Part shown: positions 9,303-53,620 of the stretch, one piece after another
How positions within the stretch are numbered: position 1 is the stretch's first letter
How the letters are laid out: each line of letters opens with the position of its first letter
NCBI RefSeq assembly: GCF_017656155.1
Contig: NZ_JACDOH010000003.1
Span: 1 to 64,000, forward strand
From: Thermosyntropha sp.
GTDB taxonomy: Bacteria > Bacillota > Syntrophomonadia > Syntrophomonadales > Syntrophomonadaceae
Length of the DNA: 64,000 nucleotides
Direction: 5' to 3'
Position numbers and translations under genes: made by a program
Notes under the pieces: generated by a model
Seen by the model: the letters and a program-made list of their open reading frames with translations, nothing else
Told to the model about the DNA's origin: nothing
The model's database searches: none

Positions 9303-10211
9303 TTATTTTTGCTGATATTTATCCGGCAGCCAAGTATTAACCAGATCCATATTTTCTTCTACCCATTTACGAGCTGCAGCCTTGCTGTCTCCCATTTCTT
9401 CTGCCATATTCATCGCCGAGCTTATATCCTTCTGTTCCCAGTAAAACTTATCAAAGAATTCATATACCTCTGGCATATCTTCTTTTAGACCTTTTCTAAC
9501 AATGGTATTAATGGTTTCCTCTTCTCCGTAACAACCTTTAGGATCCTCTAAATACTTAAGATCCCACCGGGCAAACTTCCAGTGAGGGCTCCAACCGGTA
9601 ACAACAACCCAATCCCCTTTTTCTATAGCTTGCTTCAAAGCAGCAGTCATAGTTGCTCCACTGCCTTCAACCAGTTCATAATCAAGTCCATATTCATTTA
9701 TAGCCTTTTCAGTTGCTTTCATAATGCCTGCTCCAGGATCTATGCCTATGATTTGCCCGTTAAATTTATCTTTTACACTATTCATTTCTTCAATAGAATT
9801 AATTTCAACATAACTGGGTACTACCAATCCAATTTTGGCACCTCTAAAATTAGGACCTAAGTTTTCAATCTTGTCTCCTACTTTTTCCATATAGTCTTTA
9901 TGTGTCCAAGGAAGCCAGGCACAAAACATTGCATCTGCTTCCCCCGCTGCCAAACCTTCATACATTGCTGCTGCTGAAACTGGAGTAAGTTCAACTTTAT
10001 ACCCCATAAAATTTTCTAAAACATCCGCTATTACATGGGTTGTTGCCCGTGCACATGCCCATTCAACATATAACAACTTAATCGTTTCCTTATTCTGCGA
10101 ATCCTTAGCTACTTTATCCCCGCTTTCAGGGCTCTCCCCACATCCTGCTACTAACAAAGATGCCAGTATAAATACCATCAAAAATGCCAAAATTTTTTTG
10201 TTTTTAATCAC
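9303..10211 (-). CDS. opuAC: Glycine betaine/proline-type ABC transporter substrate-binding lipoprotein
   Basis: 302 aa. Signal peptide with lipobox LVAGC (Cys24) anchors it to the outer face of the membrane. The body is of the OpuAC type: VEWACARATTHVIADVL, PVSAAAMYEGLAAGEADAMF, ACLP-like CAWLPWTHKDY, GIDPGAGIMKATEKAI and VTGWSPHWKFARWDLKYLEDP, the aromatic region that usually cages the quaternary ammonium. GTG start with AGGAGAGG 7 nt upstream. Third gene of the operon after the ATPase and permease, 27 nt behind opuAB. The operon leader is a c-di-AMP riboswitch, so uptake is tied to osmotic signalling. Confidence 0.92.
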   Translation of the reverse strand: MIKNKKILAFLMVFILASLLVAGCGESPESGDKVAKDSQNKETIKLLYVEWACARATTHVIADVLENFMGYKVELTPVSAAAMYEGLAAGEADAMFCAWLPWTHKDYMEKVGDKIENLGPNFRGAKIGLVVPSYVEINSIEEMNSVKDKFNGQIIGIDPGAGIMKATEKAINEYGLDYELVEGSGATMTAALKQAIEKGDWVVVTGWSPHWKFARWDLKYLEDPKGCYGEEETINTIVRKGLKEDMPEVYEFFDKFYWEQKDISSAMNMAEEMGDSKAAARKWVEENMDLVNTWLPDKYQQK

Positions 10212-10238
10212 CCGAAATCCTCTCCTTTCTTAATTAAA

Positions 10239-11069
10239 TCACTTACTTTTTCCTAAACTCTGGGTTATTCTGTCCAATATTATAGCGAGTATAACTATCG
10301 CTACTCCGGCTTCAAAACCCATACCCATGTTCAAGGTTTGAATTGCTTTCCATACATCACCTCCCAGTCCTTTAGCCCCAATCATCGCAGCAATAACCAC
10401 CATAGAAAGCGAAAGCATAATACACTGATTTATTCCTGCTAAAATCGTTGATCTCGCCAAAGGTAATTCAATCTTAAGCAACATCTGAAAAAAAGTAGAG
10501 CCAAAAGATCTGCCAAGCTCTATCAATTCTTCCGGCACCTGTCTTATTCCCAAAGCTGTAAGCCTTATAACCGGTGGCATGGCAAAAATAACAGTAGTTA
10601 TCACTGCCGGAACCACGCCCAGTCCAAAAAAAGGAATAGCGGGAAGCAGATAGACAAAAGCAGGTAATGTCTGCATAAAATCCAAGATAGGTGTAATAAT
10701 TTTGTAGGCTGTTTTATTTTTAGCTGCCAGTATACCTAAAGGTAGTCCCAATAATATACAAAACAAAACAGCAGATATTATCATCGCCAATGTAGCCATG
10801 GTAGCATCCCACAGTTGTATATTGTAAACAAAAAACAATCCAATAAGTGTAAAAATCCCCATGCGTCTACCTGCCAACCACCAAGCCAATGCAGCAACTA
10901 TAAAAATAAACAGTTCTGGAGGAATCATAACTAAAAAATTTTTTATCCCCAGAATCAACTTTTCAAGAAAATCAGCTATCGATTGAGTTGTATCACTACA
11001 ATGTAAGGTTAAATATGCAATAAACTTATCTGTCCACTCAGCTAAGGGAATCTTCGGAATATAATTCAT
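10239..11069 (-). CDS. opuAB: Glycine betaine/proline-type ABC transporter permease
   Basis: 276 aa inner-membrane permease of the ProW/OpuAB type. About six to seven hydrophobic segments (LFIFIVAALAWWLAG, LAMIISAVLFCILLGLPLG, PAFVYLLPAIPFFGLG, MLSLSMVVIAAMIGAKGLGG, AGVAIVILAIILDRI). The cytoplasmic EAA-type loop is visible as IRQVPEELIELGRSFGSTFF. It overlaps the end of the ATPase gene by 32 nt, so the two are translationally linked. Works with OpuAA and OpuAC in osmoprotectant import. Confidence 0.92.
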   Translation of the reverse strand: MNYIPKIPLAEWTDKFIAYLTLHCSDTTQSIADFLEKLILGIKNFLVMIPPELFIFIVAALAWWLAGRRMGIFTLIGLFFVYNIQLWDATMATLAMIISAVLFCILLGLPLGILAAKNKTAYKIITPILDFMQTLPAFVYLLPAIPFFGLGVVPAVITTVIFAMPPVIRLTALGIRQVPEELIELGRSFGSTFFQMLLKIELPLARSTILAGINQCIMLSLSMVVIAAMIGAKGLGGDVWKAIQTLNMGMGFEAGVAIVILAIILDRITQSLGKSK

Positions 11070-12264
11070 GACTTTCCTCCTTCTTTCCTGCTAATCCAGC
11101 TATAACCGATCCGCGAACCAATGTACCAACAAGTTTATTATCTTCATCCACAACCGCAACTGGCACCTTAGTATAAGCCAAGACTTCCAATAAATCAGCC
11201 AGTAAAGTGTCGGGATGCGCCACCGGCATATCTTTTTGAATTACACGTTCTAATTGTCTATCTCCCTGATTGGCTATCTCTGCTACATCCTCAGCTCTAA
11301 TATACCCAAGTAAATGTCCATCACGGTCAGTAACAAACAACGAAGATATTCCGTTTTTTTCCATGCTGCGCAATGCTGTACGTGGCCCGTCCTTGGGGAA
11401 TATTACCGTGCGGGGTTTCACCATAACTGCAGAGGCGGTAAGTGCCTTTGAACGGTCAACGTTCTCAACAAATCTGGCAACATAATCATTGGCAGGAGAT
11501 AAAAGTATTTCTTCCGGTTCACCAATCTGTACGATGCGTGCATCCTTCATAAGAGCAATTTTATCACCAATTTTTATAGCCTCATCTAAATCATGTGTAA
11601 CGAAAATTATAGTTTTATGGAGTTTTTTCTGCAGTTCCAGCAGCTCTTCCTGCATTTCATGACGTATGAGTGGATCCAGTGCACTAAAAGGCTCGTCCAT
11701 AAGCAGCAAGTCAGGATCAGTGGCTAAAGCCCGGGCAATTCCTACCCGCTGTTGCATTCCTCCGCTAAGATTATGCGGATAGTAATCTTCCCAGCCTTTC
11801 AAGCCAACCATTTCCAAGGCTTTTTTAGCTTTTTCAGCCCGTTCCTGCCTGTTTATATTTTGTATTTCTAACCCGTAAGCAACATTTTCCAAAACAGTGC
11901 GATTAGGTAAAAGCGCAAATCTTTGAAAAACCATTCCCATTTTTTTGCGGCGAATTTCTATCAGCTGTTTATCATTTAGTTTGGTCAAATCTTCACCATC
12001 AAGCAGTATTTCGCCTGCAGTTGGCTTAATTAACTGATTTATACAACGTAAAAGGGTCGACTTGCCGCTGCCAGACAACCCCATAATCACAAAACTTTCT
12101 CCACTATCAACCGAAAAGCTTACATCCCTTATCCCCACTACCTGTTTAGTCTTTTTACGAATCTCATCATTTCCAATTTCAGGATTTTTCTGTAGTAAGG
12201 CAATGGCCTTGTCCGGATTGCTTCCATATATCTTTACCACGTTTCTTACTTCAAGCTTTTTCAA
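11038..12264 (-). CDS. opuAA: Glycine betaine/proline-type ABC transporter ATPase with CBS pair
   Basis: 408 aa. ABC ATPase domain in residues 1-270 with Walker A GLSGSGKST, Q-loop VFQRFALLPNRT, signature LSGGMQQR, Walker B LLLMDEPFSALD and switch His in FVTHDLDEA. Two C-terminal CBS repeats follow (RSMEKNGISSLFVTDRDGHL and LAYTKVPVAVVDEDNKLVG). In OpuA of Lactococcus the CBS pair senses ionic strength and c-di-AMP, so a second layer of the same control may operate here (family knowledge). First gene of the operon; the riboswitch lies about 100-290 nt upstream. Confidence 0.94.
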   Translation of the reverse strand: MKKLEVRNVVKIYGSNPDKAIALLQKNPEIGNDEIRKKTKQVVGIRDVSFSVDSGESFVIMGLSGSGKSTLLRCINQLIKPTAGEILLDGEDLTKLNDKQLIEIRRKKMGMVFQRFALLPNRTVLENVAYGLEIQNINRQERAEKAKKALEMVGLKGWEDYYPHNLSGGMQQRVGIARALATDPDLLLMDEPFSALDPLIRHEMQEELLELQKKLHKTIIFVTHDLDEAIKIGDKIALMKDARIVQIGEPEEILLSPANDYVARFVENVDRSKALTASAVMVKPRTVIFPKDGPRTALRSMEKNGISSLFVTDRDGHLLGYIRAEDVAEIANQGDRQLERVIQKDMPVAHPDTLLADLLEVLAYTKVPVAVVDEDNKLVGTLVRGSVIAGLAGKKEESHELYSEDSLS

Positions 12265-12423: not shown

Positions 12424-12556
12424 ATTCTCCCTTTATACTGCTTACGAGGTTAGCTGACGGGTTCGGGCTAAAGGGCACCCTACCAATACGGATTCACCCC
12501 ACGACATTGGTTCCCCCGCTCTCAGCCAAACGCTGAGATTCAGCATACGAGAATGG
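12422..12556 (-). ncRNA. c-di-AMP riboswitch (ydaO/yuaA class)
   Basis: On the minus strand the P1 stem CCATTCTC/GAGAATGG closes a 135-nt element with the class hallmarks in order: AATCTCAGCG, GGGGGAACCAA, TGGGGTGAAT, AGCCCGAACCCGTCAGCTAA and CCTCGTAAGC. This conserved core is diagnostic for the ydaO aptamer. Family knowledge: c-di-AMP binding usually turns expression off, and targets include osmolyte and potassium transporters. It sits in front of opuAA, matching that rule. The gene-free stretch 12557-12749 is AT-rich; a TATAAT on the minus strand near 12590 may be the promoter -10. Confidence 0.93.
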
Positions 12557-12749: not shown

Positions 12750-13097
12750 TTAAAAAGCTTCCTTAATGTGACTTAAAGAAACTCCCTCTTCATTTATTAA
12801 AATACTTATCACATCAAACCTTATTTCTTTATAAAAAACATCGGTTTGGCTTAGATAAATACCAGCTGCACGGCGTATATGATTTATTTTTCTCCAGGTA
12901 ACCGCTTCTTCCGGTTCTCCATACTTTAAACTCCTGCGGGTTTTTACCTCTACAAATATCAGCACATCTTTTTTCGCGCATATTATATCAATTTCCCCAT
13001 ATCTGGTATAGTAATTACAGCCCAAAATCTTATATCCATGCTTTTTAAGGTATTCAACCGCCAGATTTTCTCCCAGCTTTCCCAGTTCCCTTTTCAC
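12750..13097 (-). CDS. yraN: YraN/UPF0102 family nuclease-like protein
   Basis: 115 aa, the normal size for UPF0102. Restriction-endonuclease-like fold signature: LGKLGENLAVEYLKKHGY, then YTRYGEIDIICAKKDVLIFV and EVKTRRSLKYGEPEEAV, giving the E-x(n)-D-x(n)-ExK metal site. Function in the cell is not established. GTG at 13097 is chosen (TAGGTG 6 nt upstream, MKRELGKLGE as in relatives); another GTG at 13106 overlaps that site. It follows the FlhB-like gene almost without a gap and ends the rnhB-FliK-like-FlhB-like operon, an arrangement resembling the ylq region of Bacillus. Confidence 0.9.
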   Translation of the reverse strand: MKRELGKLGENLAVEYLKKHGYKILGCNYYTRYGEIDIICAKKDVLIFVEVKTRRSLKYGEPEEAVTWRKINHIRRAAGIYLSQTDVFYKEIRFDVISILINEEGVSLSHIKEAF

Positions 13098-13106
13098 AAA
13101 TATCAC

Positions 13107-13373
13107 CTAATATTTCTTGTCCATACGATAAATAAAAGCTAATATCTCCGCAATTACGGGGTAAAGTTCAGGGGGGATTTCTTCATATAAGTCTAATGCC
13201 ATGAGATAGTCAGCCAAACCTTCATCTCTATGAACAGCTACTCCATACTCTTCCGCAACTGCCTTAATTTTATCAGCTATTATTCCCCGCCCTTTGGCTA
13301 CTACCCGCGGAGCCGCATCTTTTTCTTCATCATAGCGCAAAGCTACGGCTTTCTTTCTTTTTATATCTTCCAT
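13107..13373 (-). CDS. Stand-alone FlhB C-terminal-like protein (YlqH type)
   Basis: 88 aa matching only the cytoplasmic domain of FlhB/YscU export-switch proteins: KAVALRYDEEKDAAPRVVAKG, GRGIIADKIKAVAEEYGV and EEIPPELYPVIAEILAFIYR. The autocleavage motif NPTH that precedes AVAL in FlhB is replaced by KRKK (residues 5-8), and no membrane domain is present. Known as YlqH/FhlB in Bacillus, without clear function. It is directly preceded by a protein with a FliK-like tail, so the pair mirrors the FliK-FlhB partners of flagellar export although no other flagellar gene is in the window. Confidence 0.88.
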   Translation of the reverse strand: MEDIKRKKAVALRYDEEKDAAPRVVAKGRGIIADKIKAVAEEYGVAVHRDEGLADYLMALDLYEEIPPELYPVIAEILAFIYRMDKKY

Positions 13374-13394
13374 ATCTCTGCAACCCCACTTTTA

Positions 13395-14816
13395 CTAAAC
13401 CACAATATCAATGCTGAAAGGCTTTATATCTTCAACTGCCGGAACCAGTTTAACCGATTTAAGGACTAACTCATCTTTATCTTCAGCCACTTTTATCCCC
13501 AAATTATTCACTTTATAACCTAATGCTGATAAAGAAGACAAAAGCTCTTTTATGTTCTTTTCTATATGGTCTTTTACCTGTTCTGATTCGACTACTCCTC
13601 TTATATCTAAAGTTGCATTTCTAGCCCAGTTTATATGAAAAAGCACTTTCCCCAGCTTGGAAGTATTAAGTCCAACCACCAGGCTTAAATTATCGGCATT
13701 ACGCATATCTTTTTGCCTGGAATCTCTTCTAATCTTCATTTCCAAAAGATACATGCCATCTTCCATCTGCACTGGCAGGGCAAAATAGTAACAATTAAAA
13801 TTATTATCCGGCATATTGCGGCTTATAAAATTAAATAACCGCTGACCTATAAGCTCCTTTTCCCCGTCATTAAGATTTTTTATAAGTTCCTGACCTATAA
13901 AGGTTTTATTTGCTGACTCTTCATTTTGCAAAATTTCAAGGCTTAAAGACAAAACTTTCAGCAATTCCTTCTCCCCGGGCAAAACTTGCCTCAGCTTAAG
14001 TGGTAAACTATCCAGGCCTTTTTCATCTTTTAAATCTATCCTTATTTCCTCCAATACCTTTTTTAAAACTTGCAGCCAAGGCTTGAGAGGTTGAAAAAAC
14101 CTGTTTATCTCATTTTTAGAAACAGGCTTTGCTTCCAGCTCAGAAAAAGACAAGTTGCCTGTTTTTACTATTTTTTCACCCTCAGACAATGTCGAAAAAA
14201 CAAAGTTGTTAGGGCTTCCTATATTGCCTTCTCCTTCCAAAAGGCTTATTATTTTTAAAATATTATCGAACAGCTGGGATAAATCCGTACCCTTACCTGT
14301 CCAATGGGCCAATGTCTCCAAAATATCCTTATTAATTGGCAATCCTTTAGCCAAGGTAAAAGCAGCTATCTCCAAATTCTTCCGATTAAACTCACCTAAG
14401 ATTTTAACTCCCCGCAAAAGCTCTTTGATATTTTCCTGGGTAACAGGCAAATTGTATTGCATAAGCTTCCTAGCAGCCTCAATCTCCTCTTTTCCTGCCG
14501 TTATACCTGCCCGCGAAAGATGCAAAGACAGGCTAACATCCTCGAGTTTGGTAAGCACCTCCGGGGTCAATACCTTAAGATAAGCCCTATTATCTTTAAA
14601 ATTTTCCACCATCAGATAAAGCTGGTCTCCCGGCTTAACCACAGCCTCGCTCAAAGCTTCGATGATCTTTCCTTTAAGAAGAATAATAACTAGACCATTA
14701 TCCTTTACATCCTTAACCTGCCCTTTAATTATTTCTCCTTTTTTCAGGTTAAGGCTCTGTCCTTCAGGGAAAGTTATATTAAGCTGTATATTATTCAAAG
14801 AGACACATCTGGACAT
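13395..14816 (-). CDS. YlqG-like protein with FliK-type C-terminal domain
   Basis: 473 aa, mostly polar and helical with low-complexity Leu/Lys/Glu content, no signal peptide. The N-terminus (LKKGEIIKGQVKDVKDNGLV, PGDQLYLMVEN) looks like a small beta domain. The C-terminal 100 residues resemble the flagellar hook-length control domain: LGKVLFHINWARNATLDIRG, then a helix of the type IEKNIKELLSSLSALGYKV. ATG 14816 has GGAGG 5 nt upstream and overlaps the rnhB end by 26 nt. It lies before the FlhB-like gene, as ylqG precedes ylqH in Bacillus. Function unknown; a FliK-FlhB-like contact is an inference. Confidence 0.75.
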   Translation of the reverse strand: MSRCVSLNNIQLNITFPEGQSLNLKKGEIIKGQVKDVKDNGLVIILLKGKIIEALSEAVVKPGDQLYLMVENFKDNRAYLKVLTPEVLTKLEDVSLSLHLSRAGITAGKEEIEAARKLMQYNLPVTQENIKELLRGVKILGEFNRKNLEIAAFTLAKGLPINKDILETLAHWTGKGTDLSQLFDNILKIISLLEGEGNIGSPNNFVFSTLSEGEKIVKTGNLSFSELEAKPVSKNEINRFFQPLKPWLQVLKKVLEEIRIDLKDEKGLDSLPLKLRQVLPGEKELLKVLSLSLEILQNEESANKTFIGQELIKNLNDGEKELIGQRLFNFISRNMPDNNFNCYYFALPVQMEDGMYLLEMKIRRDSRQKDMRNADNLSLVVGLNTSKLGKVLFHINWARNATLDIRGVVESEQVKDHIEKNIKELLSSLSALGYKVNNLGIKVAEDKDELVLKSVKLVPAVEDIKPFSIDIVV

Positions 14817-15468
14817 CTTTTCCTCCACAGACCATGGATTTTACCGGTTCAAAACTTTTGCGGTGCATTGAACAGACGCCCTGTTTTACAAGCTCCTCAA
14901 CATGCTTTCTGGTGGCATAACCTTTGTGTTCACTAAATCTATAACCCGGATAAATCATTTCAAAATTCTTCATGCTGTTATCCCTTTCTACTTTGGCTAA
15001 AATAGAAGCACAGGCAATGGATATACTCAAACTGTCACCTCTGGTTATATTCATTTGCTCAATATATATATCGGGTATTTTGACCGCATCAGTTAATACT
15101 AAATCAGGTTTCAGGCTAAGATTTTCTACTGCCAGCTTCATAGCCAGCCGGGTAGCATTAAGTATATTTATTTCATCAATTATATGAGGCCATACATAAG
15201 CTACCGACCAGCTTATCGCCCGCTTTTTAATCTCTCCTGCCAGTTCGGTTCTTCTTTTTTCGGTGAGTTTTTTAGAATCATTAACCCCAGGAAGAAAAAA
15301 ATCACGAGGTAAAATTACTGCTCCTGCCGCTACCGGCCCGGCAATCGTTCCCCTACCTACTTCATCTACTCCAGCTATGTATTTAAAACCTTTAAGATAA
15401 GCCTCTTTCTCATATTCACTTAAAAGTTTAAGTCTTTTTCTCTCATCCTCTAAATTATATTTGCGCAT
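14791..15468 (-). CDS. rnhB: Ribonuclease HII
   Basis: 225 aa. Removes ribonucleotides from DNA and RNA primers. Motifs: GVDEVGRGTIAGPVAAGAVI (first Asp and Glu of the DEDD site), VNDSKKLTEKRR, LVLTDAVKIP, SISIACASILAKVERD and MHRKSFEPV near the end. A 30-residue N-terminal helical extension (LEDERKRLKLLSEYEKEAY) is typical of Gram-positive members. First gene of the operon rnhB, FliK-like, FlhB-like, yraN. Confidence 0.95.
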   Translation of the reverse strand: MRKYNLEDERKRLKLLSEYEKEAYLKGFKYIAGVDEVGRGTIAGPVAAGAVILPRDFFLPGVNDSKKLTEKRRTELAGEIKKRAISWSVAYVWPHIIDEINILNATRLAMKLAVENLSLKPDLVLTDAVKIPDIYIEQMNITRGDSLSISIACASILAKVERDNSMKNFEMIYPGYRFSEHKGYATRKHVEELVKQGVCSMHRKSFEPVKSMVCGGKDVQMCLFE

Positions 15469-18951: not shown

Positions 18952-19161
18952 TTATTTTCTAAGCTCCATTTCCCAGTTATCCTTATTGTCAACCTTCATT
19001 ATAACTTCATAGCCTTGAGATCTGGCAAGTTTAGTAACATTTTCCTTGGATACCTGGCTGGTTCCAACTACTAGTATTTCCTTAGCTCCACTATCCATAA
19101 CCTTCTTGGTTTTTAATACCGGCATAGGACAGCTCAAACCTCTTACATCCACCTTTTCCAT
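18952..19161 (-). CDS. TusA/YedF-family sulfur carrier protein
   Basis: 69 aa, full length for the family. The signature VDVRGLSCPMPVLKTKK contains the active Cys11 that carries persulfide (or selenium-related sulfur) in relatives. The rest is the small TusA fold (ILVVGTSQVSKENVTKLARS, GYEVIMKVDNKDNWEMEL). The gene follows yedE by 11 nt and ends at a terminator, so the transporter and carrier form a two-gene operon for uptake and handling of a sulfur or selenium species; the substrate cannot be told from sequence. Confidence 0.92.
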   Translation of the reverse strand: MEKVDVRGLSCPMPVLKTKKVMDSGAKEILVVGTSQVSKENVTKLARSQGYEVIMKVDNKDNWEMELRK

Positions 19162-19172
19162 ACTTTTCCCTC

Positions 19173-20243
19173 CTATTCTTCCCTGAAGCTAAAGCCCAAC
19201 CAGAACATAACCAAAATGCCTACAACACATGCAATCTGTCCGTAAATTCCTACACCTTGAGGAGAAGCTGCAAACATAAAATTATGAGCAATCCCCGCTC
19301 CTACGATCATTCCTATTACTACTGCGGCGGCATCCATATCTCCTTCCCCGGAAAGAATAAGCTGTCTTAACGGGCATCCGCCGAGAAGAGTAGCTGTCAA
19401 TCCCACCAGATAAAGCCCCAAGAAGTTCCATACTGACATGGTATGAGCTATCGGCTGATCAGCAAATCCCGGTTTGAAGAAACCAAAAGCGATATTTAAA
19501 ATTAAAGCCCCAATAAAAATACCTATGAAACCTAAAAGCAGATAGCTGTCTCTTATAAGTATAAAATCCCTTATTCCCCCGCTCATGCAGAGCCTGGTTC
19601 TCTGGGCCAAAAAGCCAACTACTATCCCGGCCAAAAGAGAAATACCTAACGGAGCAAATTTAGAACCAGGTCCTTCTGTGCTGAAGAAGAGAGGTCCTCC
19701 TGCATCCGGACTAAATACAGTACCTTTAATCAAAAGGAAAAGAAATAGCAATAAAATAAGAGGCAATACTAATCCACCTGCATTAGAATGGCTGTATTCA
19801 GCACGCCCTAAGTTAAAACCGCGTTTCAGGAAGAAAACTCCGGTTGCAACCCCGCAAACAAAACCTATAAAACCAACTACTGCATTATAGTCCCCGCCTG
19901 CCATGCGCAGAACATCGCGCAGAGGACATCCTAAAAATACAAGAGCGCCAATCATCATAAAAATACCCATGATAAAGCGAACAAAAGTGGCAGATCCACC
20001 ACGGGCTTTAAATTCTCCCGCAAAGATCGAAGTCAATAAAGCACCCAGAACTATACCTATAATTTCCGGCCGCATGTACTGAACTACTGCTGCACGATGC
20101 AGTCCGATAGCCCCTGCAATATCCCTTTCAAAACAGGCAATACAGAAGCCCATGTTAGGTGGATTGCCCAGTTTCACCAAAACTGCTGCAATAGCACCGA
20201 TAATTAATCCCGTAGCTAAAATAAACCACTTACTCCTATCCAC
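19173..20243 (-). CDS. yedE: YedE/YeeE family sulfur/selenium-related membrane transporter
   Basis: 356 aa polytopic membrane protein, about 9-10 hydrophobic segments in two homologous halves. The conserved Cys motifs of the YeeE/YedE family are seen: NMGFCIACFERD, FLGCPLRDVLRMAGGD, TRLCMSGGIRDFIL and GGCPLRQLILSGEGD. Family knowledge: a related protein imports thiosulfate, and close relatives in selenium-using bacteria are annotated as selenium metabolism proteins. The N-terminal CIACFERD and HRAAVVQYMRPE fit the latter type. The upstream region carries alternative hairpins that may control it. Confidence 0.88.
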   Translation of the reverse strand: MDRSKWFILATGLIIGAIAAVLVKLGNPPNMGFCIACFERDIAGAIGLHRAAVVQYMRPEIIGIVLGALLTSIFAGEFKARGGSATFVRFIMGIFMMIGALVFLGCPLRDVLRMAGGDYNAVVGFIGFVCGVATGVFFLKRGFNLGRAEYSHSNAGGLVLPLILLLFLFLLIKGTVFSPDAGGPLFFSTEGPGSKFAPLGISLLAGIVVGFLAQRTRLCMSGGIRDFILIRDSYLLLGFIGIFIGALILNIAFGFFKPGFADQPIAHTMSVWNFLGLYLVGLTATLLGGCPLRQLILSGEGDMDAAAVVIGMIVGAGIAHNFMFAASPQGVGIYGQIACVVGILVMFWLGFSFREE

Positions 20244-31502: not shown

Positions 31503-31578
31503 TGGTGGGCGATGCAGGGCTCGAACCTACGACCCCCTGCTTGTAAGGCAGGTGCTCTCCCAGCTGAGCTAATCGCCC
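31503..31578 (-). tRNA. tRNA-Val (anticodon TAC)
   Basis: 76 nt including an encoded CCA. Acceptor GGGCGAT/ATCGCCC, D-arm TAGCTCAGCTGGGAGAGC, anticodon loop CTTACAA, T-loop GGTTCGAGCC. Last gene of the Met-Glu-Val unit. Confidence 0.97.
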
Positions 31579-31581
31579 TTA

Positions 31582-31656
31582 TGGTGACCCCTAGGGGATT
31601 CGAACCCCTGTTACCGCCGTGAAAGGGCGGTGTCTTAACCACTTGACCAAGGGGCC
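31582..31656 (-). tRNA. tRNA-Glu (anticodon TTC)
   Basis: 75 nt including CCA. Acceptor GGCCCCT/AGGGGTC, anticodon loop CTTTCAC, T-arm GGGGTTCGAATCCCC. Three nucleotides separate it from tRNA-Val. Confidence 0.97.
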
Positions 31657-31661
31657 AAAGA

Positions 31662-31737
31662 TGGTGGGCCTACCAGGACTCGAACCTGGGACCAACCGGT
31701 TATGAGCCGGTAGCTCTACCAACTGAGCTATAGGCCC
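31662..31737 (-). tRNA. tRNA-Met or tRNA-Ile2 (anticodon CAT)
   Basis: 76 nt including CCA. Acceptor GGGCCTA/TAGGCCC, anticodon loop CTCATAA, T-loop GGTTCGAGTCC. It lacks initiator features, so it is an elongator. The bases around the anticodon (GGCTCATAACC) are also compatible with the Ile2 tRNA whose C34 becomes lysidine; sequence alone does not decide. Confidence 0.92.
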
Positions 31738-31761
31738 GGGTTTATTAAATCCCGCGAAATA

Positions 31762-31790
31762 AGTATATTAAATTTATCGTTAAAGGTCAA
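31762..31790 (-). promoter_or_regulatory. Promoter of the tRNA Met-Glu-Val unit
   Basis: On the minus strand TTGACC (31790-31785) and TATACT (31767-31762) are 17 nt apart, about 25 nt before the first tRNA. Flanked by an inverted repeat CGAAATAAGT/ACTTATTTCG. Confidence 0.75.
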
Positions 31791-31825
31791 TAGAAAACTT
31801 ATTTCGAACGGGTTTAAATTCAACT

Positions 31826-31850
31826 AAAAAGCGGTAACCCGGTTACCGCC
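31826..31850 (-). terminator. Terminator after tRNA-Asn
   Basis: GCGGTAAC and GTTACCGC pair around a 3-nt loop, followed on the minus strand by TTTTTAG. It lies 15 nt after tRNA-Asn, so that gene is its own transcription unit. Confidence 0.82.
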
Positions 31851-31864
31851 TTCATGTTCTTTAA

Positions 31865-31939
31865 TGGCTCCCCGAGCAGGATTCGAACCTGCAACCCTCC
31901 GGTTAACAGCCGGATGCTCTACCGTTGAGCTATCGAGGA
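31865..31939 (-). tRNA. tRNA-Asn (anticodon GTT)
   Basis: 75 nt including CCA. Acceptor TCCTCGA/TCGGGGA (one T-G pair), anticodon loop CTGTTAA, T-arm GCAGGTTCGAATCCTGC. Own promoter and terminator. Confidence 0.97.
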
Positions 31940-45377: not shown

Positions 45378-45600
45378 AACCCGTCCCCAAAACAGGGACG
45401 GGTTTACCCGCGGTTCCACCCTGGTTGGTGCTCAAAGCACCCTCCTCATTATTCTCGGGCTTTACTCACCGAAAGGCTTTCCTCCCGCAACTCCGAAGCG
45501 CCTTCAGAAAGTTTAGCCTACCGGCTTTCACCTGCCCCGGCTCTCTTTTAAGGCATCCCTTTCCTACTCCTCTTCTTCATCGTTCTCTTTTATTAAATTT
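45378..45600 (-). ncRNA. T-box leader (glycine) with terminator
   Basis: The diagnostic T-box AGGGTGGAACCGCG is at 45422-45409 on the minus strand. It is followed by the terminator AACCCGTCCC/GGGACGGGTT (45378-45404) and a T-rich run. The 3' side of stem I contains GAAGGCGCTTC, in which GGC (45502-45500) is the likely glycine specifier; AGAGAGCC and GGTGAAAGCC are the usual distal stem I elements. Uncharged tRNA-Gly would stabilise the antiterminator and switch on glyQS. Confidence 0.95.
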
Positions 45601-53501: not shown

Positions 53502-53518
53502 TATCCTCAAATTTAATA

Positions 53519-53606
53519 CCGAGGGGAGCTGGACCTTTCCGGCTGAGAGTGGGCAAAAAGGAGCCCTGACCCTTGAACCTGATCTGGGTAATGCCAGCGT
53601 AGGGAA
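53519..53606 (+). ncRNA. TPP riboswitch
   Basis: Contains the THI-element core: GAGGGGAGCTGG, GGCTGAGAGTGGG, TGACCCTTGAACCTGATCTG and GGGTAATGCCAGCGTAGGGA. TPP binding normally switches off the downstream genes. It precedes the thiamine-binding protein and transporter, so the operon is expressed on thiamine shortage. Confidence 0.97.
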
Positions 53607-53620
53607 TAATTAGCCAAAAA

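Follow-up and report, generated by a model that had tools for sequence, protein, structure and literature searches.

A stand-alone FlhB C-terminal domain (FlhX) and its FliK-like partner beside rnhB: a likely accessory part of flagellar type III export

The switch from one class of flagellar export substrate to another involves FliK-type proteins, which act on the C-terminal domains of FlhB and YscU (PMC3040844). Why, then, should a FliK-like protein and a lone FlhB C-terminal domain be encoded among housekeeping genes, apart from the flagellar operon? The question is raised by a 64,000-nucleotide stretch of DNA from Thermosyntropha sp. (hereafter the window; contig NZ_JACDOH010000003.1), in which the two genes lie between rnhB and yraN (Table 1). 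An original prediction, made from the letters of the window, saw in them a protein pair outside any flagellar locus that had kept its interaction and taken on a different job. Here we draw from gene neighborhoods, genome surveys, predicted structures and published work on related export systems to ask what the pair most likely does.

Table 1. Gene pair, flanking genes and other features of the window (positions counted from its first letter)
Feature	Position	Strand	Description
YlqG-type FliK-like protein	13395-14816	-	473 aa from ATG; Pfam Flg_hook above cut-off
FlhX, lone FlhB C-terminal (FlhBcc) domain	13107-13373	-	88 aa; PF01312, TIGR00789
rnhB (ribonuclease HII), flanking housekeeping gene	14791-15468	-	PF01351 E 1.6e-36
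yraN (UPF0102), flanking gene	12750-13106	-	PF02021 E 1.9e-30
c-di-AMP riboswitch	12424-12555	-	Rfam RF00379, 97.6 bits; immediately precedes a glycine betaine ABC transporter operon (9303-12264), which makes sense as osmolyte control
TusA-like gene beside YeeE-type sulfur transport gene	18952-20243	-
Four clustered tRNA genes	31506-31939	-
T-box leader	45391-45589	-
TPP riboswitch	53512-53620	+

The identities first assigned to the two proteins, a FliK-type C-terminus and a lone FlhB cytoplasmic domain, are borne out by profile searches. In the FliK-like protein, Flg_hook (PF02120) matches residues 371-450 of a 477-residue reading and, at 33.6 bits (E 3.4e-8), exceeds its cut-off of 29.8; the ATG start entered in Table 1 is the one favored by the class alignment. 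FlhX aligns with the FlhB family profile PF01312 at positions 262-335 of 335 only (73.7 bits, E 2.1e-20) and is the FlhBcc domain alone, without a transmembrane part. It also matches TIGR00789 (flhB_rel) at positions 1-83 of 84 (E 1.4e-29), scoring 102.1 bits against a cut-off of 117.35 that seems strict, since it is reached by only 2 of 258 genomes of the phylum. The placement beside rnhB and yraN likewise holds. The 3′ end of rnhB and the start of the FliK-like gene overlap (as read from the junction), 21 bases separate the stop codon of the latter from flhX, and yraN starts at the base right after the flhX stop codon; in arrangement the pair and its housekeeping neighbors form a single unit apart from the flagellar operon. 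In Bacillus subtilis, ylqG and ylqH presumably adjoin rnhB as well.

The window is part of contig C3 of a 2.11-Mb genome that carries full-length FlhB, FlhA and FliK together on another contig (C6), along with six rod/hook-domain matches; the stronger FliK match is the one near FlhB (C6:87490) rather than the copy on C3. The pair does lie away from the main flagellar cluster, as originally described, but the presence of an export set and rod/hook genes makes the premise of a non-flagellated host wrong at the gene level. No sign of an injectisome was found in the host genome, whose sole FlhA-family match adjoins the flagellar FlhB. The closest relative in our genome set (G049) belongs to the same genus.

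In a survey of 63 genomes of the class, FlhX is present in 41, FlhB and FlhX are both absent from 14, and 8 have FlhB without FlhX. Among the 40 FlhX loci that were read, all of them besides the host's own, the FliK-like gene precedes FlhX in 39, and the one exception stops at a contig end. The order rnhB, FliK-like gene, FlhX, yraN recurs in nearly all recovered class loci, the gaps being contig ends, while in the six genomes opened among the 14 that lack both FlhB and FlhX, rnhB is joined straight to yraN. On a tree of RnhB and YraN, absence of the pair entails five or more changes of state along well-supported branches and is most simply explained by five separate losses. In one non-flagellated relative (G011, L081/L083), rnhB is split over two frames by a frameshift or an assembly error.

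Several candidate exceptions within the class were considered and rejected. Four of the FlhB-only genomes (G001, G002, G003 and G008) have gaps at the locus, with rnhB missing or cut or the FliK-like gene running off the contig, and were not accepted as cases of FlhB without the pair; three others (G025, G039 and G057), which are 67-76% complete MAGs, were left unopened. In G046 the rnhB-yraN site is empty of the pair, but its FlhB (L114, contig C32) is only 41-47% identical to 20 class FlhBs, whereas the FlhB of G048, a member of that genus, shares 62-69% identity with the nine class proteins that it matches best; the contig bearing the G046 FlhB looks foreign and was taken as probable contamination. 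FlhX seemed to occur without flagella in G010 and G013, where FlhB and FlhA are absent from the assembly; because both have rod/hook matches (five or six each), an assembly gap is likelier. A supposed natural gene fusion in G061 (349 aa) is merely an open frame, the FliK-like gene lying in another frame.

Across 258 genomes of the phylum (completeness at least 97%), FlhB is found in 218, and a second Bac_export_2 match (two or more in all) occurs in 167 of them, a number counted by hand that may include a few split FlhB genes or second full copies. The second match is missing from the other 51, and the pair is therefore not essential for the flagellum. The original prediction had pointed to non-flagellated genomes as the place to look for the pair, and it is absent there: none of the 40 FlhB-less phylum genomes has FlhX, as in the six opened genomes of the class. 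A match in G082 was rejected as chance, covering the transmembrane part only (E 5.5e-4, below the cut-off). A Fisher test of FlhX against FlhB gives 7e-22, but the genomes are related to one another, and more weight is therefore placed on the recurrent loss seen within the class. Neither survey turned up the pair outside genomes with flagellar genes, and on this ground we rejected a non-flagellar role.

Beyond the phylum, relatives recovered with the FlhX profile occur in Nitrospirota, Desulfobulbaceae, other Deltaproteobacteria, Planctomycetota, Poribacteria, Aquicultor and Bacilli. A long open reading frame directly upstream of FlhX is the rule across phyla, and in 35 of 44 such frames from other phyla it contains Flg_hook. 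The genes rnhB and yraN were found beside the pair only in Bacillota, Bacilli included; elsewhere the surroundings differ from locus to locus. Two Nitrospirota loci have seryl-tRNA synthetase there, and in a further three lineages the neighbors belong to motility itself, the pair lying between flagellin and the export ATPase FliI (L147), behind genes for FliM, a FliN-type protein and the flagellar-type sigma factor FliA (L165), or near CheB, CheZ/CheW and CheA-like genes (L190). That FlhX and FliK-like genes stay adjacent across phyla while their neighbors change supports a functional link between them. A comparison of distance matrices was discarded as evidence of coevolution, as it does not discriminate (partial r is 0.49 for FliK-like/FlhX and 0.47 for FliK-like/YraN).

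These distributions bear directly on the idea, hinted at by the rnhB/yraN neighborhood, that the pair has been co-opted for some task in DNA or RNA metabolism unrelated to flagella. Both genes are constant neighbors in the class and are found in Bacilli too, the genes are close and overlapping, and the FliK-like protein has an OB-like N-terminal domain, a fold that often binds nucleic acid, with a weak S1 match in profile searches and OB-fold matches in Foldseek. Yet where flagella are missing the pair is missing too, with five or more changes on the tree, and rnhB and yraN are retained; it is never found without flagellar genes; and in other phyla rnhB and yraN are not found near it. We therefore regard such a task as highly improbable. 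The occurrence of the pair only with flagellar genes, in some lineages beside them, also contradicts the different job first proposed: the pair most likely serves flagellum assembly, and very probably it does so by acting on flagellar export.

The sequence and predicted structure of FlhX suggest how it might act there. The FlhX model matches FlhBcc (3b1s_B) with TM-scores of 0.87/0.90 and an rmsd of 1.1, and FlhX proteins of the class and phylum form one group apart from FlhBcc (100/100). The NPTH motif, present in 20 of 20 flagellar FlhBs, occurs in none of 120 FlhX frames. Its absence from the window protein was correctly noted in the original prediction; its replacement by KRKK was not, as FlhX simply starts at about the residue where cleaved FlhB starts, and the family shows little conservation in the residues that precede AVAL. 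A second motif, LARxLY, is mostly lost. Its arginine is found in 20 of 20 FlhBs and in 1 of 120 FlhX, with glutamate or aspartate in 99 of the 120; its last position is tyrosine or phenylalanine in 18 of 20 FlhBs, whereas in FlhX it is tyrosine in 6 of 120 and serine, methionine or alanine in 90. The window FlhX reads LADYLM at this site. The six FlhX that keep the tyrosine (L163, L167, L172, L173, L182 and L183) are perhaps an intermediate subgroup. In FlhB, changing the LARxLY tyrosine to aspartate (Y323D) suppresses the loss of FliK, and the same tyrosine change in YscU or HrcU suppresses the loss of YscP or HpaC (PMC3040844). Judged from its residues, FlhX has an altered switch surface, and the loss of NPTH together with most of LARxLY makes it more than a plain spare FlhBcc; this double loss is a testable feature of the family.

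Lost FlhB motifs, along with the absence of the pair from 51 of 218 FlhB-bearing genomes, might also be read as signs of a decaying fliK-flhB duplicate with no present role. This we consider most improbable, given that conservation of FlhX is high, with 14 of its 88 residues invariant in 36 sequences drawn from several phyla, that FlhX forms a group of its own apart from FlhBcc, and that the FliK-like protein keeps conserved N- and C-terminal domains in the class alignment.

The AlphaFold2 model of the FliK-like protein has a mean pLDDT of 82, with values below 50 only at residues 1-9 and 200-228, and comprises the OB-like N-terminal domain (29-83), then helices on both sides of a disordered link (about 200-228), and finally an alpha/beta C-terminal (T3S4) domain (342-443). 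The C-terminal likeness to FliK, on which the first reading of the locus hinged, is seen here too: the best PDB profile match is 2rrl, the C domain of Salmonella FliK (E 0.0035), and in Foldseek the model matches the switch domain of PscP (5cuk) with a probability of 1.00 across 67 columns, although a search with the whole model gave no Foldseek match at E below 0.001. The protein is thus predicted to be largely folded, which probably speaks against a long unfolded exported ruler, and it therefore probably stays cytoplasmic. In the part of the literature covered, B. subtilis ylqG appears in one list of mutations in evolved clones, with no function given (PMC11523185).

The reading that we favor, and hold to be likely, is that the pair is an accessory part of flagellar type III export, in which a pre-cleaved mimic of the FlhB C-terminus is joined by a FliK-like partner of its own. 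The pair would be a detached second copy of the flagellar substrate-specificity switch, whose two proteins signal to a growing flagellum that hook building should end. FlhX would act as a soluble substitute for the C-terminal domain of cleaved FlhB and would need no autocleavage, because its start lies about at the cleavage point. It lacks the stretch before the cleavage site, which the membrane-bound half of FlhB supplies, and so could either dock onto that half in trans or act as a competitor of the resident FlhBcc. The cytoplasmic FliK-like partner would act through its FliK-type C domain on FlhX, on FlhB or on both, modulating the change from rod/hook export to late export. Helicobacter pylori HP1575 is said, going by the title of Wand 2006, to be a 'spare part' for FlhBcc. 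The C-terminal domain of HrcU works in trans (PMC3040844). These two precedents favor action in trans on the flagellar gate, and docking in trans is offered as a tentative mode of action for FlhX, with chances somewhat below even.

Alternatively, the two proteins might act on export separately, FlhX as a passive spare FlhBcc and the FliK-like protein on the resident FlhB, with the operon only supplying them together, an arrangement that the reported role of HP1575 would suit. The absence of NPTH from FlhX would suit it too: HpaC, the Xanthomonas analog of FliK, needs NPTH to bind the C-domain of HrcU (PMC3040844), which by analogy casts doubt on direct binding between the FliK-like protein and FlhX. 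Tight adjacency across phyla with changing neighbors favors a joint function, however, and we think separate action unlikely and lean modestly toward direct binding within the accessory export part proposed above.

A bolder extension, which we regard as rather doubtful, would be a widespread second export checkpoint at which the folded FliK-like protein delivers or withholds a locked FlhX. If true, the timing of the switch would depend on a cytoplasmic pair encoded among housekeeping genes as well as on a secreted ruler, and FlhX would be a locked FlhBcc that no longer has either the cleavage site or the switch-tyrosine motif. In either form, a puzzling pair beside rnhB is tied to the flagellum, and its FliK-like member travels with FlhX across phyla. 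The strict tie to flagella in the class and the loss of LARxLY seem, to our knowledge and in the part of the literature covered, to be undescribed.

Among known systems, the injectisome pairs PscP/PscU, YscP/YscU and HpaC/HrcU are alike in structure, the predicted structures matching the PscP switch domain 5cuk and the PscU/YscU C-domains 5cul and 6ejp, and unlike in setting, the host genome having no injectisome sign. The FliK-type C domain and the FlhBcc fold of the window proteins recall the switch of FliK with FlhB, whereas the host has a separate FliK and FlhB; FlhX differs from FlhB in lacking the membrane part, NPTH and LARxLY, and the FliK-like protein differs from FliK in being predicted mostly folded and encoded outside the main flagellar cluster. 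FlhX itself is an already known protein. With FlhX/YlqH/HP1575 (TIGR00789, flhB_rel) the window protein shares a stand-alone FlhBcc-like domain with no membrane part, the FlhBcc fold, the company of flagella and a TIGR00789 match nearly end to end, although its score of 102 bits falls short of the 117-bit cut-off and the likeness to HP1575 and YlqH is by description only. Published work lists FlhX with the flagellar export proteins (PMC9321776, PMC10746217), and in Nitratiruptor flhX-fliK lies apart from the main flagellar cluster (PMC9321776). That genus belongs to another phylum and is likened by the pairing alone rather than by sequences or neighbors; what it has in common with the window is that the two genes are paired at a distance from the main flagellar genes.
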